Source: an uncultured Oleiphilaceae bacterium (GTDB taxonomy: Bacteria; Pseudomonadota; Gammaproteobacteria; Pseudomonadales; Oleiphilaceae). Taken from it: a stretch of 64,000 bases of DNA. A model generated the notes under the pieces. It saw only the letters and a list, made by a program, of their open reading frames with translations. It was not told where the DNA came from and ran no database searches. The stretch lies in the NCBI GenBank assembly GCA_913060665.1, contig CAJXUY010000014.1, positions 54,597 through 118,596 of the forward strand, given 5' to 3'. The translations under genes and the position numbers were made by a program. Shown one piece after another: positions 25,599 to 47,625 of the stretch. The stretch's first letter is position 1; each line of letters begins with the position of its first letter.

Positions 25599-26657
25599 TT
25601 AACAGCAACCACCGCCTGCATCACTGCCGCTATCATCTGTTGTCCAAAGGTCAAACGGGATGGACGTTCCACAACCTTCAAAGATGCCATAGTGAGTGTC
25701 CCAGTTACCGATGAACTCAAAATGATCTTTAAAGCGTGTGTCGTGAAGCATTTTCCATGTATTGCCGCAGACAGGAAAAACCTTTCCTTTTTCGATGGCG
25801 TGATGTTTATCAAGCCAAAATACTTCTGTGTGATTAGGAATAGACCCTTTATATATTACTGCTTGTCCGTAATCTTCACATTGAGGCTCTAATTCTGGCA
25901 GCTTAAACAAACGATAAGTGGCAGAGAAAAAGTTGATATGGCCTATTTTCTCTTCAACACTTTCGTTGTCTATGGTAATGACGCTATCTTCGACCAGACG
26001 GGGGTCGTTAAACCCAGCAGATTTTGCCAAATTCACGAAATCGTTCCAGTACAAGGCGCCACTGAGACACTCACCATATAAAACAGGGTCTTTTACTAGC
26101 GATTCTGGAACTCGCCTGTCGGCATAAACATCTGAGAAGTATAGTTCTCCACCGGGCTTTAGCAGCCGGTAAGCTTCTCTCATAACAGCCTCTTTATCGG
26201 GGGAGAGGTTGATCACACAGTTAGACACGATGATGTCAAAGCTATCATCTGGCAAATTGAGCTCATCTAAGCGTTCAATGTAACCTAACCTGAATTCTGT
26301 ATTAGGTTTTGCATAGCCAAACTTTTTAGCATGATAGTCGATATGTTTTTGAGCGATACTGAGTTGTTCTTCAGTCATATCTACGCCCAACACAGAACCG
26401 CTTTCACCGACCCATTGAGAGAGCACATAACAGTCTCTTCCGGAGCCACTTCCAAGGTCAAGAATACGAGCGCCTTCTAATAACGCAGGAGCAATCAGAC
26501 CGCATCCGTAATAGCGCGCCATTACTTCATCGTGAACTTGCGACAGCGCATTTTTAATGTGTCTAGGCATGTTGCTGTCAGTACAACAGGCATTGGTTTT
26601 TAGGTCGTCACTGTGCTGAAGTACTTTACCGTAATAATCTCTAACGTCGTCGCGCAT
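25599..26657 (-). CDS. ArsM-like arsenite S-adenosylmethionine methyltransferase
   Basis: SAM-dependent methyltransferase of the ArsM type, expected to methylate arsenite. The SAM motif I is DLGSGSGRD (67-75). Cys residues at 52, 147 (SNCVINLS) and 197 (GECLSGALYW) occupy ArsM-like arsenic-ligand positions, with a further pair at 24-25 and a C-terminal GGGCC. Length 352 fits. No arsR, arsB or acr3 gene is adjacent; a related permease lies 18 kb away in another unit. The gene stands alone. Confidence 0.88.
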   Translation of the reverse strand: MRDDVRDYYGKVLQHSDDLKTNACCTDSNMPRHIKNALSQVHDEVMARYYGCGLIAPALLEGARILDLGSGSGRDCYVLSQWVGESGSVLGVDMTEEQLSIAQKHIDYHAKKFGYAKPNTEFRLGYIERLDELNLPDDSFDIIVSNCVINLSPDKEAVMREAYRLLKPGGELYFSDVYADRRVPESLVKDPVLYGECLSGALYWNDFVNLAKSAGFNDPRLVEDSVITIDNESVEEKIGHINFFSATYRLFKLPELEPQCEDYGQAVIYKGSIPNHTEVFWLDKHHAIEKGKVFPVCGNTWKMLHDTRFKDHFEFIGNWDTHYGIFEGCGTSIPFDLWTTDDSGSDAGGGCC

Positions 26658-35620: not shown

Positions 35621-36287
35621 TAGATTGAAGGAATTAAAACGCAGGAAGTTTGAATTAAACGAAGACAATTGAACTGAAAACAGGAAACGAAATAACACTT
35701 TACTAACTGTATTTATTACATATTACAAGCTTCACGCTTGTCTTCGTTTTTAAAAGTTACGATTACAATTAGGCCTATTAATCTTTTAGCCTTGTTCATA
35801 ACGAGATAAACTACTGCGACTACGAGTCGCTGCAAACTAGCAGGCTTCAAATGGTAAGGTTTCCGGGGTATTGAAAGCTTACGTTTCAAACCAAACTTGA
35901 ATGGTAAAACCTGTCTACAGGCTGCGCTAGAGAAGAAGAGTGTTATTCAGAGGCAAAAGTGTCCGCGAAGCTGCCACTCAACAGCTATATGAAAATAAGG
36001 ACTATTCGGTCAAATTTTGCGTTTATTTGACTAGCGAAAAGAGCACAAAGCGCTAACCTTTGTCAGGTCTGTAAACGTGACAAATAGGCCTTGCTATTAT
36101 CAAAGAAAACGAATTTTCAGTGAGTAGTTTGAGCCTTCCACCGTTACCGCCTCCCTCATATAGTTACCAAAACGTTAAGCAGCGAAAATACCTTACAGTA
36201 CAGGCTCGATGTAAACAGACGCAATTCACTACTGAAGACTCGCTACACAGGTAATTCATAGGGAAATTCCTGTAGCGCAGGAATATA
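35621..36287. other. 667-bp intergenic region without ORF
   Basis: No protein-coding stretch was found on either strand. It holds a 12-base inverted repeat, AAACGAAGACAA (35657-35668) / TTGTCTTCGTTT (35738-35749), the right arm running into TTTTT, which may end the flavoprotein transcript. At 36266-36284 a 7-bp stem ATTCCTG/CAGGAAT with a 5-base loop sits against a TATAAT (36284-36289), the probable -10 of the Zur-controlled gene. The middle (35800-36250) is mixed sequence with no recognised RNA family. Confidence 0.5.
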
Positions 36288-36304
36288 ATGTTATGTTATA
36301 ACAT
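36288..36304 (+). promoter_or_regulatory. Zur-type operator upstream of the ZnuA-like gene
   Basis: ATGTTATGTTATAACAT: arms TGTTAT and ATAACA are perfect around a 3-base centre, matching 11 of 13 bases of the gammaproteobacterial Zur core GTTATAATATAAC. It overlaps the -10-like TATAAT at 36284-36289 and lies 70 bases before the start, as expected for a repressor site. Confidence 0.75.
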
Positions 36305-36373
36305 ACCTTATTAAGTTTCTACACATACCACGAATCTTTAAAACTAAATTGCCATCAACATTTGGAGAATCTC

Positions 36374-37813
36374 ATGCGAGATAAGCTATTGGCCTACACA
36401 CTGCTTGGTTTAGGAATTCCGCTCACATCAATAGCGAGCACAAGCAGCCCTAATGTCGCCGTAGATATTGCCCCTTTGCACTCTTTGGTCAGCCAAGTGA
36501 TGGAAGGAGCTGGTAAGCCGGAATTACTTATTCCTGCCGAAGCCTCCCCTCATGAATATACATTACGCCCTACACAAGCGCAGAGTTTGTCCAATGCAAA
36601 AATTGTATTTTGGATGGGCGAGGAGCTCTCGCCATGGTTGGAAAAAGCCATGGACAATGTGGCCGACTCTGCACAAAAAATTGAAATGCTAGCGCTGGAC
36701 AGCACGGTAAAGTATGAATTCCGTGAAGGTGCAACCTTTGAAGAGCATGCCCACGATGATGAGAACGAAGAAGAGCAATTTGATGACCATAAGGAGTATG
36801 AGTCCGGTTGGTTCGACGGGTTCTTGTCATGGTTCAGTCCTGACGATCATGAACATGATGGTGCTCATTCTTTTGAATGGGCGGGTGCTTTTAAGCTCTC
36901 AGCCGGAGAATATGTGTGGTCCTTTGCAAAGGTTGATGGCGATTACGCAGACCCCATGATGAAGATGGTAATGCTTGCAAGTAATTTAAGTGGAGAATCA
37001 GCCATTGAGGCGGAGGAAGAAACGGCCGAAGGGTTAGTAAAATCGTCGAACGCGATTAAGCTCGTTCATAGTGATGCAATGACACCAAACGCTAGTAGTG
37101 CCTACCAAGTCGTTTTTGATCCCAATAGAAATGTGACCGAATACCGCGTGCTTATCGAAGAAGAAGGGGTGTATACATTTTTTACCGAGCATATGCCCTT
37201 TGAATTTGAAGCCGATGAGCATTTTTTCAAAGATGCGGGTGGGCAAGATGTAGAACCCATTGCTCAAGAGCCAGAAGCGGGTCACCATCATCATGGGGGT
37301 ACCGACCCTCACGCTTGGCTTGACCCAGAAAATGCAAAAACATGGATCACCGAAATTAAAGAGGTGCTATCCAAAAATGATCCTCAAAACGCCAATCTGT
37401 ATGACCGTAATGCCAAACAGGCAATCGCTGAGCTGGACAGTCTCATTGAAACAACGCGTAGTAAAGTGAGCAGTCTCGGTGAGTTGAAGTTTATTGTATT
37501 TCACGATGCCTACCAGTATTTCGAGAAACGATTCGGCATATCAGCAGCAGGGTCAATCTCACTTGGTGATGCAGAAGACCCAAGCCCCGCAAGGATTGCA
37601 GAGATTCGAGATACTGTTAGAAAACTAGGTGTGAACTGTGTTTTCACTGAGCCTCAGTATAACCCTGGGTTGGTAGAAAACGTATTTGATGGATCGACCA
37701 TCTCGGCTATTGGCGTAATGGACCCCTTAGGAGCAAGTATTGAGGTAGGGAGTAAACACTATGCAGCGTTAATAGAAGGTATGGTAACTAGTTTAAGTCA
37801 GTGTAAAAAATAG
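36374..37813 (+). CDS. ZnuA-type zinc-binding protein with a large inserted domain
   Basis: Periplasmic zinc-binding lipocalin-like cluster A-I solute-binding protein. Signal peptide ends near SIAST. Zinc His ligands are expected in APLHSLV, SPHEYTL and DPHAWLDP, and in FHDAYQYF; Cys in GVNCVFTEP and the C-terminal QCKK match the ZnuA disulfide. At 479 residues it is about 170 longer than E. coli ZnuA. The extra part (residues about 115-300) carries acidic/His clusters (EEHAHDDENEEEQ, DDHEHDG, HHHHGG) and a beta-rich unit starting FEWAGAFKLSAGEYVWSF. The ATG at 36374 follows GGAG by 7 bases. No permease or ATPase follows. Confidence 0.88.
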   Translation: MRDKLLAYTLLGLGIPLTSIASTSSPNVAVDIAPLHSLVSQVMEGAGKPELLIPAEASPHEYTLRPTQAQSLSNAKIVFWMGEELSPWLEKAMDNVADSAQKIEMLALDSTVKYEFREGATFEEHAHDDENEEEQFDDHKEYESGWFDGFLSWFSPDDHEHDGAHSFEWAGAFKLSAGEYVWSFAKVDGDYADPMMKMVMLASNLSGESAIEAEEETAEGLVKSSNAIKLVHSDAMTPNASSAYQVVFDPNRNVTEYRVLIEEEGVYTFFTEHMPFEFEADEHFFKDAGGQDVEPIAQEPEAGHHHHGGTDPHAWLDPENAKTWITEIKEVLSKNDPQNANLYDRNAKQAIAELDSLIETTRSKVSSLGELKFIVFHDAYQYFEKRFGISAAGSISLGDAEDPSPARIAEIRDTVRKLGVNCVFTEPQYNPGLVENVFDGSTISAIGVMDPLGASIEVGSKHYAALIEGMVTSLSQCKK

Positions 37814-37936
37814 TAATGCTGTGTTAGAGGGCAGGCTTTTAGGGTGCTATCAGCCCGCGCCTTTAGCATAAAACTGATATTCGTCGCCTCACAAACCGGC
37901 GAGCTATTGTGACGAGACAAGTAAGAGGATGGTTAA

Positions 37937-38134
37937 ATGTCTAACAAAATTCCTGTTACTATACTCACCGGTTTCGTTGATAGTGGCAAGACTACGCTGC
38001 TCAATCGCATCTTGTCAGAGGAGCATGGTCTACGCATCGCTGTGATCGAAAACGAGTTGGGTGAAATTGGTATTGACCTAGATTTGGTCATTAATGCCGA
38101 TGAACCGGATAATACAAGAGCCTTTGCATTATGA
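37937..38134 (+). pseudogene. Truncated COG0523 (CobW-like) GTPase
   Basis: Only the first about 55 residues of a COG0523 metal-chaperone GTPase remain: [22 protein letters not shown] (P-loop, normally GFLGAGKT) and [13 protein letters not shown]. The frame ends '[12 protein letters not shown]' before the CxCC metal motif and the rest of the G domain. The stop overlaps the next start by 4 bases. A full family member has over 300 residues. The start of the island is therefore probably damaged. Confidence 0.85.
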
Positions 38135-38568
38135 AAGATATAAAGAAAATTTTCCGTAATCTCGAAAATAAACTGAAACAGACTAGTTGGTTTGAAGATG
38201 ACTGGGAAATATATAACCGCGGTGCCTACCTGCAACTCTATAAAATTAATTGGCATAATCATAATCAAGGTGGCATTCATTTTGAAACCTTTATTGAAGG
38301 GCCCGAGATTAAACAAAAAGCCTTTCCTGTTTGTATGCATGCTGAGGAGGATAGTCCGTCTCAATCAGAGTTTATTGAAAAATTTCTAGAGCTAGAGGGC
38401 GATCGTATACAAAGCTGGAAGGGTTACCAGACGGTGGGTAAAGGATACAGTATATGCCAGAAAACCCTGCCGCTTAATTTTAAGAACCTAGAACAACGCT
38501 TGTTCGAAGAGTTTAACCGTCTTCGACAACTTGAAGCTGGCATTGAACAGGTAATGAGTAAGCTTTGA
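38131..38568 (+). CDS. Unknown protein in the zinc island
   Basis: 145-residue soluble protein that I do not recognise. The N-terminus ([34 protein letters not shown]) is amphipathic; a single Cys pair occurs at about 71 and 110. Start ATG overlaps the truncated GTPase stop (ATGA), and its own frame is intact, so it may still be translated. It could be the natural neighbour of a COG0523 gene or the C-terminal remains of an insertion event. Function unknown. Confidence 0.6.
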
Positions 38569-38611
38569 ATGCAGGTGTATATAAATGCAAAACGTAATGT
38601 GAGGCCGAATA

Positions 38612-38800
38612 TTGAAAAAGCCTAAAAGCCCTTGCATTGATGTTTGTGAATTCTCGGGGCCCAATGGCTGGTGTCTGGGGTGTGGTCGCACTCGGCCGGA
38701 GTGTCAAAAGTGGAAGGCAATGAAGCCCTATGACAGAAATATTCTTGAAAAAACGTTAAAAAAAAGAATGTCACAGATAACGTCCAAACAGGTTCAATAA
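38612..38800 (+). CDS. DUF1289 small Cys-rich protein
   Basis: 62-residue protein with the DUF1289 Cys set, CIDVCEF then CLGCGRTRPECQKW, likely binding a metal or Fe-S cluster; the family function is unknown. Start TTG at 38612 is needed to include the conserved SPCIDVCEF region; no good ATG precedes it. It is probably co-transcribed with the ZnuA-like gene (38131 ORF lies 43 bp before it). Confidence 0.8.
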   Translation: MKKPKSPCIDVCEFSGPNGWCLGCGRTRPECQKWKAMKPYDRNILEKTLKKRMSQITSKQVQ

Positions 38801-39105
38801 AAAGTTCACGGTACTATCAGAGATCACCTAGAAGGGAAAAGTCATATGTGGACAAAACCCTTTTTCAAAACTACGAAAACCAAACCTGTTGGCTCAGAAG
38901 ACAACGGGAGCTTATTTGATTGATGGAGTTATGTCTGCAATCTGGAGTTACCTGCCAAAAATATGTAACACAAAAATATGTAGTAGTGTGATTCCCAAAG
39001 GAAACTGTCGGTCTAATTACCGAGCGACTTTGTCGTAAAGAGCATATCAGCCAGTTGTTAAACTGGCTACGATTCATGCACTTTTCAGCCCAGATCGTTT
39101 TCCCA
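38801..39105. other. Intergenic region with a possible decayed reading frame
   Basis: 305 bp with no intact gene. On the plus strand one frame reads coding-like sequence such as GVTCQKYVTQKYVVV and LITERLCRKEHISQLLNWL but is broken by at least two stops. I could not assign it to a family, and it lies directly against the transposase remnant, so it may be part of the same insertion. Confidence 0.35.
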
Positions 39106-39320
39106 TCAAGCCTTGTTTACTTTTTGGTGTGGTCCACAGCACATTTTGCCCTGATGAGTTCGGTCATTGTTATAATATTCCATCCATTCGTCCAGAGATT
39201 TTTGTAAACCCTCCATGGTAGAGTATAGTTTTTCCTGAATGTGATCTGGTAAAACTCATTCAGAATAGTCTTATATCTTTGCTTGTTTTTGAAATGGGAG
39301 AAATGATGTACCTAATCCTC
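39106..39320 (-). mobile_element. Remnant of an IS3/IS481-type transposase (C-terminal DDE end)
   Basis: The minus strand reads KQRYKTILNEFYQITFRK and, after a one-base frameshift, LYSTMEGLQKSLDEWMEYY then NNDRTHQGKMCCG before a stop. This is the C-terminal end of an IS3/IS481-type integrase-like transposase. No matching N-terminal part or terminal repeats were found, so only a 215-bp scar remains between the two arms of the zinc island. Confidence 0.75.
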
Positions 39321-39349
39321 TATTCATTTGCAAGTCTTAAAAATTAATC

Positions 39350-40336
39350 CTATTTCGAGACCATAATAATATCTATCTGCTTCTCAAAAGCATTGAGACG
39401 TTTGTAAATAGACAACAGCTCAACGATGGTACTCCACGAGTGAACTAGAAATTGGAAGGACTCTTCTACCTTGCCGAATGCTCTGATCACTTGTTGCATA
39501 ACGCCCAAAGTAATTGCCCCGGCTACGATAGTTGGGGCTAAGGCGATGTAGGGTATGATCACCGAAAACTGTATATAGGACCATTTGGCAATATCGAAAT
39601 ATAAGTAGTGTTTATACAGGTTGAAGTAGTTCTTACGCAAATTGTCATATAACTTACTGACTGAAGGGGGGGCTGCTCGGTCGGCTTGATCTTCACCAAG
39701 CACTAACTCTTTACGATAAGCGGCTTCCACCATCTGGTTCTTGAACTCTAGTCCCGGCAATTTAATACCTACAATAGCCAATAATAAGGTGCCACAGCTT
39801 GCGGAAATAATAGCTACAAAAACAAGAGCTTGGTCAACAGCGCCAATCCAAGGTAATTCCTTCACATGTTCACTTAACCCCCACAGAATAGGCATGAAAG
39901 CAATGAGGGTCATAATAGAGCGTATAAACGCGACTCCCAGCCCTTCCATAATTCTGGCAAAGCGCATGGTGTCTTCCTGAACTCTCTGTGCAGCGCCTTC
40001 AATGTGACGGATGCCTGGCCAATTTTCCATATAGTAATCATTCATGGCTGTTCGCCAGCGAAATACATAATGTCGGATAAAGAACTCTAGCATTACAGCT
40101 ACAACGATGTAGATACCGGCAATCCCTGCAAAGGTAAGGAGAAACCCCAAAAAATCATCGATCGTCACAGCGCCTGGTTCTGATAGAGCCTTTTGAATAG
40201 TGTCGTAGAATTCTCCAAACCATTCATTGATTTTTACGTCTAACTGCACCTTGTACCAAGTAACACTGAAAATAAGAATAGTTCCTAGAAAGGACCAATG
40301 GAGCCAGTTTCTATTTAGAAAAAAAGATTTAAACAT
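39350..40336 (-). CDS. SbmA/BacA-like peptide transporter, short form
   Basis: Inner-membrane proton-driven importer related to SbmA, which takes up microcins, bleomycin and Pro-rich peptides. The family core is unmistakable: YVFRWRTAMNDYYMENWPGI, then HIEGAAQRVQEDTMRFA, and GIKLPGLEFKNQMVEAAYRKELV. At 328 residues it is about 75 shorter than E. coli SbmA; the first helix region is missing while the MFKSFF start is kept, and an in-frame TAA lies just before the ATG. It is the last gene of a minus-strand unit with yidD, an M23 protease and dksA2. Confidence 0.9.
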   Translation of the reverse strand: MFKSFFLNRNWLHWSFLGTILIFSVTWYKVQLDVKINEWFGEFYDTIQKALSEPGAVTIDDFLGFLLTFAGIAGIYIVVAVMLEFFIRHYVFRWRTAMNDYYMENWPGIRHIEGAAQRVQEDTMRFARIMEGLGVAFIRSIMTLIAFMPILWGLSEHVKELPWIGAVDQALVFVAIISASCGTLLLAIVGIKLPGLEFKNQMVEAAYRKELVLGEDQADRAAPPSVSKLYDNLRKNYFNLYKHYLYFDIAKWSYIQFSVIIPYIALAPTIVAGAITLGVMQQVIRAFGKVEESFQFLVHSWSTIVELLSIYKRLNAFEKQIDIIMVSK

Positions 40337-40395
40337 GAGGTGTTATGCCGTTTTAGATTGGGTTTTAGGTCAAAATTGGGTAGCACTTGTATTGG

Positions 40396-40689
40396 CTATT
40401 CTTTTAAGTTTGGTTGTTCTTTAGGCTGACAACACGGCGGTACAGGATCGTAACCTCCGGTTCCCATCGGGTGGCAGCGCCCCAAACGTTTTATCGTTAG
40501 CCACCCTCCTTTAATCGCACCATGCGTTTTTAAGGCTTCGATGGCATACTCCGAACATGTCGGATAAAAACGACAGCGAGGACCTATCATAGGGCTAATG
40601 ACTAGCTGGTAAAGTTTTACGAGTAACATTAACACGCTAGTAGGCAAACGTCTTAACTTCTGAAAAACGTTAGAGGTCACTTTTCTCAT
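40396..40689 (-). CDS. yidD: Membrane protein insertion efficiency factor YidD
   Basis: Small membrane-associated factor for YidC-dependent insertion. The family signature [21 protein letters not shown] and [24 protein letters not shown] is complete, 97 residues. The normal gene lies in the rnpA-yidC locus; here it stands between an M23 protease (16 bp upstream) and an SbmA-like gene (60 bp downstream), so it is probably a second copy serving this operon. Its start RBS is weak. Confidence 0.92.
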
Positions 40690-40705
40690 ATTTTCTAAAC
40701 TTTGT

Positions 40706-42103
40706 TTAACCTGCTGAAGGCGACGTCGTACTGCTAGGCATGCTAGTTTGCTCTAGTTGAACCTGAAGTTTAGCCTGTTTGTTTTGATTCTTATGCTGTT
40801 TATTAAGGTGGACTATTTTTTCCTTACTGAGCATTAAGTTTTGCATATCGACGACATGCAAATCAAAGCCTTTGATCTCGTTATTAGGGATGGACTTAAG
40901 CATAGGAATTTTTGCGGTCATAGGATTAACTGGCCGGCTCCTAATGTGTAATTCATAATGAAGATGTGGTCCCGTTGAGCGACCTGTATTTCCAGACAAT
41001 GCGATGACTTGGCCTCGCTCTACTTGCTGTCCTTTTCTTACGAGTATTTTGCTAAGGTGAAGAAACCGTGTCGAGTAAGCGCCAAACTCATCTATATCGA
41101 TATACTTACCCGCATAGCGGTGGTTGGCGACACGAGTGACGCGACCATGGCCAGTAGAAATTATAGGCGTTCCGGTGGGCATGGCGAAGTCAACTCCATT
41201 ATGAGGCTTAACTCGCCCGGTAACTGGATGTACTCGGCGAGGATTGAAAGACGAGCTTATACGATACTTTTTACGTGTCGGATAGCGTAAAAGCGCTGGC
41301 ACTAAGCTCTCGCCTTTTGCATTGTAGTAAGAACCATCGTTGTGTAAGTAAGCGCCAAACTCTTTTCCCCTTAATAGAATACGCGCTGCGAGTAACCGAT
41401 CTTTTCCAATACTTTGCCCATCAATGACCTCACGCTCCATCACGACCTGAAAGTGATCGCCAGCCCGTAAGTCACGCTTAAAATTAAGTGTATTCTTTAG
41501 GAGTTGAGTGATCGTCATAACACCTTTATCTGACAGGCCCGAGGATGAAGCTGAAACATAAAAACTGCCAATTATTTGCCCGCGTGTTACTTCGGCAATC
41601 TTAGTGGTTGGAGTCAGAGTTTCATTGTACATGAAATTCTCTTCATTGCGCTGGTAGGTGACCGTCCTACTCGGATCAACTATACGAGATAGGGCTTCTA
41701 GACGATTGTTAGATTGATCTATAAGAAAGTCCAGATGGTCTCCTGGTCGTAAAACATCCAATTCCAAGTATGGCTCATCGGCCTCTAATATGTCTTGAAG
41801 CACCTTTATGGAGAGCTTCTTTCGCAAAAAAATAGCCTCAAGGGTATCGCCTTCTACCACACTGTAGCGTTGATCTTGAAACTGTTGCTCTCTCGGCTTT
41901 TGAGTAGGTTGTTCAGCCATTACTTTTTGGCTACGATTATTTTGCTGATCAATTATCTCAGTGGGAATAGAGTACTGACTAGGTGTTGATGGCGGTGACG
42001 AGCTAATGCTGTACCAGAGCAAGCTGGCGAGAGCAATAAAACCAAAAACAATTTGAAGTTGACCGAATAACTGTTGATTAAACTGATTTCTATTAAGCTT
42101 CAT
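40706..42103 (-). CDS. M23 zinc endopeptidase, ShyB/MepM-like
   Basis: Periplasmic murein endopeptidase anchored by one N-terminal helix (residues 17-33). Residues 80-180 form a LysM/OapA-like region; the M23 domain has His301 and Asp305 in [10 protein letters not shown], His349, and His380/His382 in [10 protein letters not shown], all ligands intact. Length 465. In Vibrio cholerae the related ShyB is repressed by Zur and works under zinc starvation; the position beside a DksA2 gene with a Zur-like box supports the same use here. The C-terminal 60 residues are Gln/Lys-rich and low-complexity. Confidence 0.9.
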
Positions 42104-42156
42104 ACGTTCGTTATTTTTCTTTGATCTGAATAACCATCCTTAGTAGACACTAAGCT

Positions 42157-42588
42157 TTAGTCCTTGTAAGCATGTTCTTTTATTTCTTTAACGGTCTTCA
42201 CGTCAGCACAATATTCTGCGGTAGGTCTAGCCAATAAACGTGGAATACCAATGGGGTCCCCAGTTTCTAGGCAGTAACCATAGTCGCCCAATCGGATACG
42301 TTCTAAAGCTTCTTGTATCTTAGGTAATAATTTTTGTTCGCGATCAACGATACGTAATAAAATGGCACACTGTTCTTCCCAGCTTGCTCTATCGCCTTCA
42401 TCACTCAACTCCATCGGGCTAGCCATTTGATCTTTAGTTTCTTGTATTCGCTCATGGGTTGTTTCATGAAGGTCAATCAGTAGTGCTTTGAAAAAAATCA
42501 ACTGAGCTTGGTTCATGTAATCTTGTTCAGCGGCTTGTCTGATTTGCTCTTCGGTTAAGTCTTGCGTACCTATATGCTTTTTGTCCAT
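42157..42588 (-). CDS. dksA2: DksA2-type transcription factor lacking two zinc-finger cysteines
   Basis: RNA polymerase secondary-channel factor that acts with ppGpp. The coiled-coil tip keeps D63-x2-D66-x-A68. In the C-terminal finger, Cys106 and Cys127 remain but the partners are Thr109 and Val130, so no four-Cys zinc site is formed. This is the pattern of Pseudomonas DksA2, which replaces zinc-dependent DksA when zinc is scarce. First gene of the minus-strand unit dksA2-M23-yidD-sbmA; a Zur-like box lies 48 bases upstream. Length 143. Confidence 0.93.
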   Translation of the reverse strand: MDKKHIGTQDLTEEQIRQAAEQDYMNQAQLIFFKALLIDLHETTHERIQETKDQMASPMELSDEGDRASWEEQCAILLRIVDREQKLLPKIQEALERIRLGDYGYCLETGDPIGIPRLLARPTAEYCADVKTVKEIKEHAYKD

Positions 42589-42635
42589 AACCTACCTTAT
42601 TGATATGTAATCACGGGTATTGTAATAAAGGGTAC

Positions 42636-42648
42636 GTTATAACATAGC
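42636..42648 (-). promoter_or_regulatory. Zur-like operator for the dksA2 unit
   Basis: GTTATAACATAGC matches 11 of 13 bases of the Zur core GTTATAATATAAC. It lies 48 bases upstream of the dksA2 start, within the probable promoter. Confidence 0.55.
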
Positions 42649-42822
42649 ATAAAATATAGAAAGCTCACATAGCTTTACTTTCTTTTAAGATAAACGCTGA
42701 ATCGACCTGACTTCTCTAGACACATTTTTGCTTTATTGGAGTCGTTATTAGTTCGCTTTAAACTAAAGCACCCTCAGCAGAACCTGTATACAAAACTATA
42801 GCCAATCTATCTCTATAATGCT

Positions 42823-42839
42823 ATGTTGTATCATAACAT
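42823..42839 (+). promoter_or_regulatory. Zur-like operator for the plus-strand unit
   Basis: ATGTTGTATCATAACAT: arms TGTTGT and ATAACA around a 3-base centre, one arm mismatch from the ideal, 10 of 13 core positions. It is 155 bases before the decayed second dksA2 and 185 bases from the first Zur-like site, so the two divergent units have separate operators. Confidence 0.6.
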
Positions 42840-42993
42840 TACTTGCCATCTTAGCGATGCTTTTAATAAGCATTAAGTACCCACTCGAGTAATTCGCTTT
42901 TATAGAGCGGGGTATTAAACGTCGAAAATCAAAAAAATATATCATAACTACTGAGTTGTACGTCGTTTGGGATGCGTTTTCAGGAGAATTAAT

Positions 42994-43277
42994 ATGAGCC
43001 TATATATGCTAATAGGCTTACTGAAAAACAAATAGTAAACGCTCCCGGGAAAGACTACATGAATGCTGAACAACTCGGGTTTTTAAGGATGCGCTGCTGG
43101 AATTGCATAAGCTCACCTGCGCACTGATTCAGGAAGCCAAAAATTCAGCAGTCGCTTTATCGTATTAGTTTAGATACCTATGGATATTGTTTTGACCTTG
43201 GGGAATCCATTGGTATTCCCCGTCTTCTGGCTAGGCCAACAGCAGAGTATTGTGCTGAAGTGACAAACCTAAAATAA
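42994..43277 (+). pseudogene. Decayed second dksA2
   Basis: DksA-like sequence in several frames: LTEKQIVNAPGKDYMNAEQL, then DALLELHKLT, and finally DTYGYCFDLGESIGIPRLLA with ARPTAEYCAEV. The middle (coiled-coil) part is deleted and at least two frameshifts are present. The finger again keeps only two Cys (C...L, C...V), like the intact dksA2 on the other strand. An AGGAG stands 7 bases before an ATG at 42994. It is the first reading frame after the Zur-like box at 42823. Confidence 0.8.
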
Positions 43278-43391
43278 ATTAAAGAGCACCACTATAAAGA
43301 TTAGAAGAAGGTGAGCAGAAAATGTGCAAATTAACAACCGAATACGTGACTACAGCACAAAATATTGGCGACACATACAGGCAGTCCTTTT

Positions 43392-44516
43392 ATGCGAAAC
43401 CTTGATGTTGTTATTGTCGGTGCAGGCCCAGCAGGGATTGGTATGGCAATGGAGCTAGGGAAGATACCTGGGCTAGAGTTTGGGGTATTGGAAAGTGATC
43501 GCATCGGGGAATCCTTTCGACGTTGGCCAAAACAAACACGCCTTATTACACCCTCTTTTTACAGTAATCCCTTCGGTCTGGCAGATTTAAACACTATCGA
43601 TTCAACGACCTCGCCAGCCACTTTTGCTGGTGCAGAGCATTTAAGTGGTGATCAGTATGCAGATTATCTTGAACTCGTAGCAGAAAACGCAGAATTGCCA
43701 ATTGTTTGTGGCTGTAAGGTTTTAGAAGTGACCCCTGGCCCAGATGGTGGTTTTCATCTAATTACCGAACTCGGTGAGTTGTTTACAGAGTTTCTCATTT
43801 GGGGTTGTGGAGAATACCAATTCCCAAAACTAAACCCCTTTCCTGGGGCTAATTTGTGTGTTCACTACGCACAGGTCGAAAACTGGCAGATTCTAGAGAG
43901 TAGTTCTTATATCGTGATTGGTGGCTACGAAAGCGGCTTGGATTCGGCGATAAATTTAATCAAACTTGGCCATAAAGTACGCTTACTTGTGCGTAAAGCT
44001 ACTTGGGACCAGTCAGATATAAACGACCCAAGCCAAGTGCTTTCACCGTATACACGTGAACGATTACGTGAAATGGAATCCAATGATCTACTGGAGATTA
44101 TTTTTGATGCAAACGTAAGGGAAGTAACACGCCAGGGTGATAACAGTTACAGAGTACATGCCGCAGACGGTCGATATTGGGACGTAGAGCAAGCGCCTAT
44201 TTTAGGTACAGGTTTCCTCAATGGAGGTGGCGCTCGTCAAATTAAAGACCTTTGGATGTGGAATGACGAAGATCACATCATGCTGAGCGACGCTGACGAA
44301 TCCGTTATGACTTCAGGCCTTTTTCTCATTGGGCCTCAGGTGCGCCATGATCAGCGTATTTACTGTTTTATCTATAAATTTCGCCAGCGTTTTGCACGTA
44401 TTGCATCGGAAGTTGCGCAACGCTTGCAGCTGGATACTGAATGGCTCGAAGGTTCGGAAAATGGTGTTTGGGGGCCTTTTGGCAATAGTGACTGTTGTGA
44501 AGGTTGCGAATGCTGA
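43392..44516 (+). CDS. NAD(P)/FAD flavoprotein with Cys-rich C-terminus
   Basis: FAD-dependent oxidoreductase of about 375 residues: N-terminal Rossmann VVIVGAGPAGIGMAMELGK and a second nucleotide site near YIVIGGYESGLDSAINL, resembling flavin-monooxygenase/thioredoxin-reductase-like proteins. The C-terminus is GNSDCCEGCEC, with four Cys in seven residues, suggesting metal or thiol chemistry. ATG at 43392 is preferred to the TTG at 43365. The next gene overlaps by 7 bases. No substrate is known; the zinc-island setting makes a metal role plausible. Confidence 0.85.
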   Translation: MRNLDVVIVGAGPAGIGMAMELGKIPGLEFGVLESDRIGESFRRWPKQTRLITPSFYSNPFGLADLNTIDSTTSPATFAGAEHLSGDQYADYLELVAENAELPIVCGCKVLEVTPGPDGGFHLITELGELFTEFLIWGCGEYQFPKLNPFPGANLCVHYAQVENWQILESSSYIVIGGYESGLDSAINLIKLGHKVRLLVRKATWDQSDINDPSQVLSPYTRERLREMESNDLLEIIFDANVREVTRQGDNSYRVHAADGRYWDVEQAPILGTGFLNGGGARQIKDLWMWNDEDHIMLSDADESVMTSGLFLIGPQVRHDQRIYCFIYKFRQRFARIASEVAQRLQLDTEWLEGSENGVWGPFGNSDCCEGCEC

Positions 44517-45562
44517 ATAATTTGTCAATTGATCGTTTGCCCCTTGTGACTATAAGTTCCTTCATACTGATCACAAGTATTATCGTTGGTGCAATGCTTG
44601 GTCACTTTGTCCCGGTCACTGGGGAGTGGTTGGGTAATCGTGTGGATTACACATTACTCACCTTAGTCGCCTTATTATTTTTTGGTGCTCGTTTTGATGC
44701 GCTATTTAAGATTGCAAAACGTCTAGATTTTCTGGCAATTGCACTGTTTACCAATTTCGTAGCAGTGCCTGTAATAGGGTATGGGACTGCCTCACTATTC
44801 CTCTCTGCACATCCGCTTTTTGCCGTTGGGCTTGTGATCTATTTTATGGCGCCCTGTACCGACTGGTTTTTGAGCTTCACTAGGCTTTCAGGGGGAAATA
44901 TCGCTCTGGGAACAGTCTTGATTCCCATCAATATGACCGTTCAATTGTTACTCTTCCCTTTTTATCTCGATTGGTTCGCTCAAAATAGTGTGCAAGTCGA
45001 AGCAGGCTTAATTAGCAGTACATTGTTGCAATGGTTTTTACTACCACTTCTTGTGGCTATTGCGCTACACCAATGTTTGCGAAGATTACTTAAGCCAATC
45101 TTGTTCGAGCGTATATTAGACAAAGCTGATAAGACGACTCTTTGGTTGACCGCCGTAGTTATCATGCAAATATTTGCTGGAAATATTTCAATGATCATTG
45201 CGCATCATAATGTACTTGTTTTGGTACTAATCGCTGTGTTTGCTTTCTTCCTACTTACCTTTTTGCTCAGTGAAGGTTTGAGTTATTTTTGCTCGCTTCG
45301 GTATCCTGAGCGAGCATTACTGACGATGACAACCGCCGCACGTAACGCTCCCCTAATGCTCGCAGTGACCGTTGTGGTTCTACCTGATCAACCATTGATC
45401 TATGCGGCACTAGTCATTGGAATGTTAGTTGAAATGCCTCACCTGACAATATTGCGATATCTGCTTTTACGCAAGCGACAGCGTCTTAGGAAAATAAAAA
45501 ACCTGCAACACTTGAGAACAGATAGAAAAGAATACAATGGCCTAGGACAACGTTATCAATAG
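44510..45562 (+). CDS. BASS/ACR3-like permease
   Basis: Ten-helix inner-membrane permease of the bile acid:sodium symporter superfamily, closest in pattern to ACR3-like arsenic-resistance proteins (APCTDWFLSFTRLSGG resembles the ACR3 APCT region; second half RNAPLMLAVTVV). The C-terminal 35 residues are charged and cytosolic. It overlaps the flavoprotein by 7 bases, so the two form one translationally coupled pair. Neither ArsR nor an arsenate reductase is present. Whether it exports arsenite, a metal complex or a product of the flavoprotein is unknown. Confidence 0.8.
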   Translation: MLNNLSIDRLPLVTISSFILITSIIVGAMLGHFVPVTGEWLGNRVDYTLLTLVALLFFGARFDALFKIAKRLDFLAIALFTNFVAVPVIGYGTASLFLSAHPLFAVGLVIYFMAPCTDWFLSFTRLSGGNIALGTVLIPINMTVQLLLFPFYLDWFAQNSVQVEAGLISSTLLQWFLLPLLVAIALHQCLRRLLKPILFERILDKADKTTLWLTAVVIMQIFAGNISMIIAHHNVLVLVLIAVFAFFLLTFLLSEGLSYFCSLRYPERALLTMTTAARNAPLMLAVTVVVLPDQPLIYAALVIGMLVEMPHLTILRYLLLRKRQRLRKIKNLQHLRTDRKEYNGLGQRYQ

Positions 45563-45599
45563 AGGGCTAATAAAATATTAACGTAAGGACTTCACATAG

Positions 45600-45740
45600 A
45601 TGCCACTGAAAACTGCATACAACCATTACGCAATGAGCCATGTAATCTTTCAGGCGAGGCTCAAAAAGTATTTCTTTTACCATTTTTCAGGATTCAAAAC
45701 CGCCATAGGCATTGACACCGATAGCGTGAGAGGACAATAG
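45600..45740 (+). CDS. Possible 46-residue small protein
   Basis: Frame MPLKTAYNHYAMSHVIFQAR... ends 4 bases before the GTG of the CysRS gene. AAGGA lies 10 bases before the ATG. It might be a leader peptide or a residue of a former gene. No homology is recognised; the call rests only on position and RBS. Confidence 0.3.
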   Translation: MPLKTAYNHYAMSHVIFQARLKKYFFYHFSGFKTAIGIDTDSVRGQ

Positions 45741-45744
45741 AACT

Positions 45745-47151
45745 GTGAACAAAAACCCTCCGATCTACCTTCACAACACACTCTCCCGTAAAAAAGAGCA
45801 ACTAAGTACGAGTCAGCCCGAACGCGTGACAATGTATGTGTGTGGCCCAACCGTTTACAATTACGCCCATATAGGTAACGCGCGGCCAGCCCTCGTATTC
45901 GACGTGCTATCGCGGCTACTACGTCATGACTACCCGACAGTGATCTATGCGCGCAATTTCACAGACGTGGATGACAAAATCAATGCTGCTGCAGCAGCTA
46001 CGAACGTGCCTATCAGTGTAATCACGAATCGCTATATCGATGCTTACCACGAAGACATGAAATCATTAGGTGTACTAACACCCGAATTAGAACCGCGTGT
46101 TACCGAGCATATTCCCATCATTATAAAGTTAATTAATACCTTGATCGAACGAGGCCATGCCTATTTTGCTGAAGAGCATGTGCTATTCGATGTAGCGTCT
46201 TATCCGGAGTACGGACATCTGTCTGGGCGGCGCAAAGAAGACATGTTGGCAGGTGCTCGCGTGGAGGTTGCACCTTATAAACGCAATCCTCTAGATTTCG
46301 TACTCTGGAAACCTTCGACACCAGAATTGCCGGGTTGGGAAAGTCCTTGGGGTTGGGGGCGTCCCGGTTGGCACATTGAGTGCTCAGCCATGATCGGCAA
46401 GCATCTTGGCCATACCATAGACATCCATGGTGGTGGTCAAGATCTGATTTTTCCACATCATGAGAATGAAATTGCGCAAGGTACATGTGCCCATGGTGAA
46501 CTCTACTGCCGTACTTGGGTTCACAACAGCTTTGTCACGGTGGAAGGGCAAAAGATGTCTAAATCGCTTGGTAATGTTCTGCTAGTTCGCGACCTTCTCG
46601 ATCAAGCACCGGGAGAGGTCATTCGGTTGGCATTGTTATCTACCCACTATCGCAAGCCACTAGATTGGACCTCAGAGCGACTTCAGCAAGCCCGAAATGT
46701 TCTTGCGAGTTATTACGACAGCCTGTTCAAGGTAAGTGATATTGAAGTCTTGCCGGATATAAAAGCTGACAAGCAGGTGCTGGAAGCGCTGAGGAATGAT
46801 CTCAACGTTACTGGCGCCTTAGTACGTTTGCGTGAATTACAGACCCAATTAGACCGAGCAAACTCAGATACCCAGCGGGCGGACGTTAAATCCATTCTGC
46901 TGGCATCAGCTAAAATTCTAGGGTTTCTGCAGCTGCCACCGCATGAGGCTCTTTCGGTGCTTCGTCCAGAAGCAACCTCTTTTATATCATTGACTTCAAA
47001 TGCAAGGATCAAGTCGCTGGTGGCTGAGCGTGAGCAGGCAAGACAAGACAGAGACTTCGCTAAATCCGATACCTTGCGCAACACACTAGTCAATGAAGGA
47101 GTTGTCATTGAAGATACCGCTCAAGGCCCTGTATTACGCCCAGTCTCATAG
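45745..47151 (+). CDS. cysS: Second-type cysteinyl-tRNA synthetase
   Basis: Charges tRNA-Cys with cysteine. HIGH-type motif [14 protein letters not shown] and KMSKS are intact; length 468. Zinc ligands look kept: Cys33 in YVCGPTVY, Cys in WHIECSAM, and FPHHENE. GVNV-style features such as [20 protein letters not shown] and [14 protein letters not shown] resemble alphaproteobacterial CysRS rather than gamma types, so transfer is likely. CysRS paralogues have been reported among Zur-linked genes. Start is GTG with a GAGAGGA-like site. It is expected to be a spare copy beside the housekeeping cysS. Confidence 0.92.
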
Positions 47152-47238
47152 CGAGTAGCAATAAGAATGAAGACAATTTCTTGATTTAATAACCAACCTA
47201 ACAATACTTAATAAAATATGTAAAAGGAAAAGATAAAA

Positions 47239-47625
47239 ATGCAACAATCCCCTCGTGAAATTCTAGATAAATGGATGAAAGCCGTTAACGGCGCAAACGT
47301 AAAGGGCTTGCTCGATTTATATGATACTCAGGCTGTTTTGATACCTACTTTTTCAAACAGGGTGTTAAATACCCCCGAAAAGTTGCGAGATTATTTTGAA
47401 CGATTAGGTAGCCGGCCAGAACTGAGCATCGCCCTCCATGAGAAAACGCTAATCATTCAAGAGCTGCAAAATCAGTTCTATGCTCTGGGTGGGATCTACA
47501 ACTGGCGCTTTGCCGTTGACGATGAGTTACTTAACTTTGAGGCGCGTTTTAGCTATGTGGTAGATCTGTCAAAGCCAAGCCCCATTTTGCATCACCATTC
47601 ATCTCAAATACCACGGACACTGTGA
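47239..47625 (+). CDS. NTF2-like/SnoaL-type protein (DUF4440-like)
   Basis: 128-residue soluble protein with the NTF2 fold signature: REILDKWMKAVNGANVKGLLDLYDTQAVLIPTFS opening helix-loop, and IYNWRFAVDDELLNFEARFSYV as the last strand pair. It ends in HHHSSQIP. Small-molecule binding or a minor enzymatic role is possible. AAGGAAAA precedes the ATG. It follows cysS by about 87 bp and may be the last gene of the plus-strand zinc unit. Confidence 0.75.
   Translation: MQQSPREILDKWMKAVNGANVKGLLDLYDTQAVLIPTFSNRVLNTPEKLRDYFERLGSRPELSIALHEKTLIIQELQNQFYALGGIYNWRFAVDDELLNFEARFSYVVDLSKPSPILHHHSSQIPRTL

Follow-up and report, generated by a model that had tools for sequence, protein, structure and literature searches.

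The stretch analysed here is a 64,000-nucleotide window from an uncultured Oleiphilaceae bacterium, covering positions 54597-118596 of contig C14 in a genome of 4.39 Mb (G000:C14:54597-118596) and ending where the contig ends. Between positions 36287 and 47625 it holds an island of three units, each preceded by a candidate operator (box) of the zinc regulator Zur. From box 1, a plus-strand unit runs through znuA, a 65-residue COG0523 fragment, a gene for an uncharacterised protein (H145) and a DUF1289 gene; from box 2, a minus-strand unit runs through dksA2, an M23 endopeptidase gene, yidD and sbmA; and from box 3, a second plus-strand unit runs through a dead dksA2 copy, a flavoprotein gene, a permease gene, a second gene for cysteinyl-tRNA synthetase (cysRS2) and an NTF2-like gene. 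ZnuA, DksA2, CysRS2 and COG0523 are known Zur themes, and it is the flavoprotein–permease pair that stands out.

Zur-type operators and zur genes

Box 1 (36287-36305) lies 69 bp upstream of znuA and matches a shared 14-mer core, TATGTTRTAACATA, without mismatch. Box 2 (about 42628-42651, in two overlapping registers) lies about 40 bp upstream of the minus-strand dksA2 and box 3 (42822-42840) upstream of the plus-strand flavoprotein unit, each with one mismatch to the core. Boxes 1, 2 and 3 took ranks 1, 3 and 2 of 63,982 positions when scored with a matrix trained only on four sites of the same genome outside the window, namely the sites upstream of zur on contig C12, of hisI–pyrC–folE2–thrS on C7 and, on C18, of znuCB and of the COG0523–zur unit. 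No position in 4.4 Mb of order-1 random sequence reached their matrix scores. Genome-wide, eight sites match the core with at most one mismatch, and all of them lie inside four islands of zur or zinc-linked genes: three in the window, two on C7, one on C12 and two on C18. The core was written after seven of these eight sites had been seen, and the sole independent find (C7:108984) lies upstream of a zur gene at a distance of 68 bp. Scanning the window with a loose 13-mer gave no signal (610 matches against 642.6 expected); the sites separate only with the longer core at zero to one mismatch or with the matrix.

The genome carries four genes of the FUR family, three of which we call Zur-type from their mutual similarity and their neighbours and, for the one protein compared with the PDB, from its best matches (7dh7 and 4mtd, 'zinc uptake regulation protein'). 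Two of the paralogues are 55% and 63% identical to the third, and each stands beside boxes and zinc-linked genes (on C7, C12 and C18; loci L020-L022). A genome with three zur copies is unusual in the group: three matches occurred in two of the 41 family genomes searched, this one included, and the other four genomes of the genus had none or one. The initial annotation had reported three boxes and the named genes, all of which are present, and had taken joint control by Zur from them, to be checked by a zur gene in the organism and by boxes exceeding the genomic background. That idea gains support from the Zur-type genes and from boxes that rank among the best matches of the genome at zero to one mismatch, though not above control at two. 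On these motif matches, Zur control of the island is well supported as a prediction.

In the three further islands the neighbours were checked against families. On C12 the order is zur–hisI–COG0523. The C18 island reads ZigA-type COG0523–DUF1826–zur–DUF1007–NicO, followed by znuCB; the ZigA-type protein scores 696.5 bits (cut-off 600), and ZnuB (250.3, cut-off 284) and ZnuC (265.6, cut-off 306) have these as their best families, yet stay below the cut-offs. The C7 island is zur–NicO–hisI–pyrC–folE2–thrS, in which hisI, pyrC, folE2 and thrS exceed their NCBIfam cut-offs and NicO was recognised by eye. The genome has two ZnuA genes, one in the window and one on C1; the 3.8 kb read around the latter shows neither znuB nor znuC. 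Both binding proteins are thus encoded at a distance from the znuCB of C18. CysRS and YidD are likewise present in two copies each.

The flavoprotein–permease pair in this and other genomes

The flavoprotein (FLAVO; 43392..44516, plus strand) belongs to Pyr_redox_3 (Pfam, 287.3 bits) and has a solved relative, 3d1c. It ends in a four-cysteine tail, CCEGCEC (44493..44513, plus strand), found from alignment conservation: in 22 sequences, the window and 21 relatives, all four cysteines of CC-x2-C-x-C are invariant. In a larger set of 60 sequences, made up of the window and the loci with a flavoprotein open reading frame of 340-450 amino acids, the last three (C369, C372 and C374) are retained in at least 95%, and the tail is kept across Proteobacteria, Firmicutes, Chloroflexi and Verrucomicrobia. 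Three cyanobacterial sequences and one from a planctomycete carry CC-x3-C-x-C instead. The tail would be a plausible zinc acceptor. The database rows consulted give the family no names other than oxidoreductase, monooxygenase, thioredoxin reductase, 'flavoprotein involved in K+ transport' or 'CzcO'.

The start of the permease gene (44510..45562, plus strand) overlaps the flavoprotein stop. The protein has the BASS (SBF) fold (Pfam SBF 64.8 bits, cut-off 24.3; Foldseek matches to ASBT structures with a query-normalised TM-score up to 0.75), is ACR3-like, and keeps C116, R278, E308 and H311 invariant in 18 sequences. The pair was followed through 72 loci gathered from genome contigs by flavoprotein motifs alone. 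Of these, 42 are proteobacterial by their record titles, and the remaining 30 come from Firmicutes, Chloroflexi, Verrucomicrobia and other groups. In 35 of the 72 the flavoprotein is followed by a BASS permease and in 20 by an unrelated FeoB-like transporter; five loci are too short for the partner to be judged. In 41 loci the partner is the first open reading frame listed downstream, and in 30 of them its mechanical start precedes the flavoprotein stop. All three FeoB-like partners scanned have FeoB_N and Gate domains, and the length of these partners is 541-566 amino acids. Their scores against the FeoB equivalog (87.3, 77.5 and 99.1 bits) lie below its cut-off of 315.65, and FeoB membership is not claimed for them. 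An uncharacterised protein of about 200 amino acids adjoins the flavoprotein in Verrucomicrobia (L079:2630-3259) and, by eye, perhaps in Rubrobacter (L062:9337-9930); no Pfam family above cut-off matched it.

Genes linked to zinc recur beside the flavoprotein. COG0523 occurs in the available flanks of 34 of the 72 loci. Of nine kinds of zinc-linked genes, at least one is present in 43 of the loci and at least two in 31. For 35 loci whose own genomes were searched, COG0523 was present in 21, against 0.83 expected by chance. A hexapeptide protein resembling gamma-carbonic anhydrase (one member checked) was found in nine loci, and gamma-carbonic anhydrase is a known Zur theme (PMC2770081). YidD was matched in eight loci and a ShyB-like M23 protein in two. 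The initial annotation had set known Zur-linked families apart from genes not usually named in that response; this division needs adjusting, as the flavoprotein and permease and, to a smaller extent, YidD recur in zinc loci of other genomes. SbmA and the NTF2-like protein had no matches in the 72 loci, and H145 and DUF1289 were matched in L042 only.

Candidate operators accompany the gene as well. A Zur-type box scoring higher than any site in 1 Mb of matched random sequence was present in 38 of the 42 proteobacterial loci, and in 20 of the 42 one stood within 600 bp before the flavoprotein match, these and the following distances running to the start of the tblastn match, which is not a proven start codon. 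In L097, from the order of the window's organism, the distance is 359 bp. Six of seven Firmicute loci (L063-L067, L070 and L074) have a Bacillus-type Zur box 40-74 bp before the match, with one to three mismatches to the consensus; the best match in ten shuffles per locus had at least four. As predicted from these motifs, a different operator sequence stands at the same gene in Firmicutes than in Proteobacteria.

Other genes of the island

ZnuA (36374..37813, plus strand) is a zinc-binding protein by Pfam (212.9 bits, cut-off 29) with an insertion of about 160 residues, which splits its match to the NCBIfam ZnuA equivalog (192.1, below the cut-off of 268). By alignment, the insertion contains acidic and histidine-rich stretches and is not found in the other ZnuA of the genome; a match in L024 is 68% identical to the window protein. 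The COG0523 (cobW) gene that follows (37937..38134, plus strand) is an N-terminal fragment of 65 amino acids matching Pfam cobW over residues 6-55 and is likely a relic. H145 (38131..38568, plus strand) matched no Pfam or NCBIfam family, and the DUF1289 protein (38612..38800, plus strand) matched PF06945. As in the window, these two genes are adjacent in a Methylophaga locus (L042:16335-16949), which has HisI and COG0523 nearby.

Between the first two units lies an insertion-sequence-like repeat remnant (39081..39274), transposase-like by eye and 93% identical over 196 bp to a copy on C2. A further matrix match at 39166 sits inside it and was discounted as a box. The minus-strand unit, listed here by rising coordinate, includes an SbmA/BacA-like transporter (39350..40336; Pfam 489.6 bits), whose membership of a zinc unit is uncertain, and one of the two YidD copies of the genome (40396..40689; Pfam and NCBIfam matches). 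In seven of the eight YidD loci (L024, L029, L050, L055, L056, L090 and L094) YidD directly adjoins a CysRS match. A smaller lead is that a second YidD may form part of the zinc-starvation set. The endopeptidase (40706..42103) is of the ShyA/ShyB M23 type, with ShyA 6u2a as its best PDB match (E 4.9e-97); it scores 411.0 against the NCBIfam ShyA cut-off of 700 and no ShyB model was among its NCBIfam matches, so ShyA and ShyB are not distinguishable and neither membership is claimed. DksA2 (42157..42588; best PDB match 4ijj) lacks the C4 zinc finger: in the alignment with 4ijj and 1tjl, C-x2-T and A-x2-C replace the two CxxC motifs.

Next to this intact gene, a plus-strand dksA2 relic (43002..43301) is interrupted in translation by two in-frame stops. 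A DksA2 match directly precedes the flavoprotein in L026, and the relic therefore probably marks an older gene order. Neither it nor the insertion-sequence-like remnant had been noted in the initial annotation. Downstream of the permease, CysRS2 (45745..47151, plus strand; NCBIfam cysS 476.7 bits, above the cut-off of 340) is 44% identical to the other CysRS of the genome and, aligned to 1li5, retains the counterparts of C28, C209, H234 and E238 of that structure, which we take to be the zinc ligands of CysRS. The SnoaL/NTF2-like protein (47239..47625, plus strand) has weak Pfam matches and an uncertain role in the unit. A sigma-70 promoter scan of the island found 18 candidates, not above the 24.6 expected from shuffles, and a terminator scan gave only a slight excess (14 against 10.3); these near-shuffle levels do not fix the operon ends. 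About 10 kb from the island, at 25599-26657, a methyltransferase gene resembles arsenite methyltransferase (ArsM) by eye.

Interpretation and relation to known systems

We propose that the island is a cluster of Zur-repressed zinc-starvation genes whose core, the flavoprotein with the four-cysteine tail and its permease, acquires zinc or a substitute metal. Control of the pair by Zur appears highly probable from the predicted operators and the recurring neighbours, and metal-transfer or redox chemistry of the pair is doubtful; for these two reasons we regard the whole statement as evenly balanced between right and wrong. The permease would let zinc, or a substitute metal, into the cell, the tail of the flavoprotein would take up the metal at the inner face, and the tail thiols, or a thiol carrier, would be kept reduced by NADPH through flavin adenine dinucleotide (FAD). 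DksA2 would stand in for a zinc-finger protein, and extra capacity would come from the second ZnuA and from CysRS2, which retains its presumed zinc ligands. That one flavoprotein is paired with two transporters unrelated to each other suggests a common substrate for enzyme and transporter. Since FeoB-type proteins carry divalent metals, the ACR3-like permease is predicted to move metal too. The tail recalls mercuric reductase, a flavoprotein with terminal metal-binding cysteines.

Several observations weigh against this proposal. The flavoprotein is rare: at E <=1e-60 the genome of the window is the only carrier among 398 searched in the phylum, and at E <=1e-30 the order has two carriers in 293 genomes, this one and that of L097. 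The pair is patchy in distribution. In 12 of the 72 loci neither permease type was within 1.5 kb, although enough sequence was available there, and 29 of the 72 had none of the nine markers in the available flank. The marker matches were taken at E <=1e-8, and those to HisI, ThrRS and ZnuA may not be zinc-starvation paralogues. In 18 of the 38 box-bearing proteobacterial loci the box was not within 600 bp before the flavoprotein, and four of the 42 (L025, L030, L031 and L044) had no box over the threshold; L066 had no near Bacillus-type box, and the Rubrobacter locus L062 had none. Genome-wide, the core at up to two mismatches (22 forward and 24 reverse sites) was not commoner than its reversed control (35 and 35). 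For an earlier 17-mer at up to three mismatches there were 21 sites, and 17 for its control; nine of the 21 lay in the four islands, counting overlapping registers and leaving out a site in the insertion-sequence-like remnant. In view of these controls, weight can be placed on near-perfect matches alone. The flavoprotein's AlphaFold model is poor (mean predicted local distance difference test score 67.2, below 50 in the tail) and was not used to place the tail. Finally, we know of no zinc carrier among the ACR3 and bile-acid symporters, which the permease resembles.

Other explanations were weighed. In one, the flavoprotein acts as a reductase and the pair imports Fe2+, Mn2+ or Co2+ as a substitute metal, with which the paralogues keeping their zinc ligands (CysRS2, and probably ThrRS2 and HisI2) could then be loaded. 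The FeoB-like partners in 20 of the 72 loci would fit this, as would the retention in CysRS2 of the presumed zinc ligands, and a redox enzyme suits a redox metal better; a tail of four thiols, however, suits zinc equally, and the three partners scored lie far under the FeoB equivalog cut-off, and we consider this explanation unlikely. The same FeoB-like partners, which are no arsenite pumps, speak against a metalloid or toxic-metal defence of ArsO- and ACR3-like proteins that came under Zur by chance. ACR3 is the nearest NCBIfam family to the permease (70.2 bits), the flavoprotein has a weak ArsO match (26.5 bits), and the permease keeps a Cys and a Glu that are important in ACR3; both scores are far under the cut-offs (282.8 and 425), and Zur-type boxes precede the flavoprotein gene in two phyla, so we give this explanation little credence.

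A slim chance is left to a flavoprotein that hydroxylates a small molecule, turning it into a zinc carrier moved by the permease. Its fold, in the poor model, resembles the N-hydroxylating monooxygenases DfoA and SidA, and one neighbour cluster in three loci looks by eye like a TonB receptor; against this, no metallophore biosynthesis gene was recognised by eye among the 45 commonest neighbour clusters, FeoB-type proteins are not, to our knowledge, known to move chelates, and the conserved cysteine tail would go unexplained. Similarly improbable is a reading in which a standard Zur regulon contains unrelated genes, with the flavoprotein and permease counted among these passengers. In its favour, neither SbmA nor the NTF2-like protein was matched in related loci, and the relics and the insertion-sequence-like remnant mark a disturbed region, but the pair itself recurs with zinc genes and operators far above expectation.

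Bacterial zinc uptake is usually described via ZnuABC and ZIP proteins, and a flavoprotein–transporter pair that follows Zur-type operators in phyla far apart points towards an additional route or handling step for zinc. It would link zinc supply to NADPH and thiol chemistry, would bring BASS/ACR3-fold and FeoB-like proteins into zinc physiology, and offers a testable function for a widespread flavoprotein family. Taken furthest, and as a tentative suggestion, the pair may be an undescribed redox-coupled system of metal acquisition in zinc starvation, horizontally spread across phyla, in which ACR3-fold permeases and FeoB-like proteins act as interchangeable gates feeding a flavin enzyme that carries zinc on its four-thiol tail.

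Among proteins of solved structure, the Staphylococcus aureus putative flavin-containing monooxygenase 3d1c is a full-length relative of the flavoprotein (E 2.3e-86 with alignment) and also has C-terminal cysteines; its PDB title gives no function, and we know of none, nor of its regulation. The next-best PDB matches are of the bacillithiol disulfide reductase YpdA/Bdr, which shares the fold and the layout for NADPH and FAD. Unlike YpdA/Bdr, the flavoprotein scores 61.5 bits (cut-off 339.9), has the cysteine tail added, and carries Ala14, invariant in 22 sequences, at the position in the first Rossmann loop where we take the active-site cysteine of Bdr to be; with this score and this residue, membership is not claimed. 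ArsO membership is not claimed either, the score being far below the cut-off given above. The permease shares the BASS fold, a PCT motif and a late Glu with ACR3 exporters and BASS symporters, and differs from ACR3 in its score and its zinc context, and we do not call it an ACR3 arsenite exporter. The FeoB-like partners in other phyla share domains with ferrous iron transporters and differ from FeoB in length and equivalog score.

Haas 2009 (PMC2770081) describes gamma- and betaproteobacterial Zur regulons that include COG0523 and zinc-enzyme paralogues; the DksA paralogues are without the C4 finger, and those of CysRS and ThrRS retain zinc ligands. Common to those regulons and this genome are DksA without the C4 finger, CysRS, ThrRS, HisI, PyrC, COG0523, FolE2 and DUF1826; the words flavoprotein and permease are absent from the main text searched, and the present genome differs in having three zur genes and four islands. 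Open-licence literature on flavoprotein, oxidoreductase, permease, FeoB or YidD with Zur yielded no published description of the pair, which is weak evidence of absence, and none is found in the consulted portions of PMC2770081, PMC6103462, PMC2823685, PMC13339975, PMC6336718, PMC7174638, PMC5387054, PMC10393844 and PMC10957091, with cg0795 and MSMEG_5022 as possible exceptions. PMC12288471 deals with thiolutin and FAD-dependent disulfide reductases and mentions Zur, and a table of PMC7174638 gives negative fold changes for MSMEG_5022, a 'flavin-containing monooxygenase'. A parallel is offered by cg0795 of Corynebacterium glutamicum, a Zur-controlled 'putative oxidoreductase' beside a COG0523 gene (PMC2823685). 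It may be a homologue of the flavoprotein, in which case one demonstration of Zur control in the family already exists.

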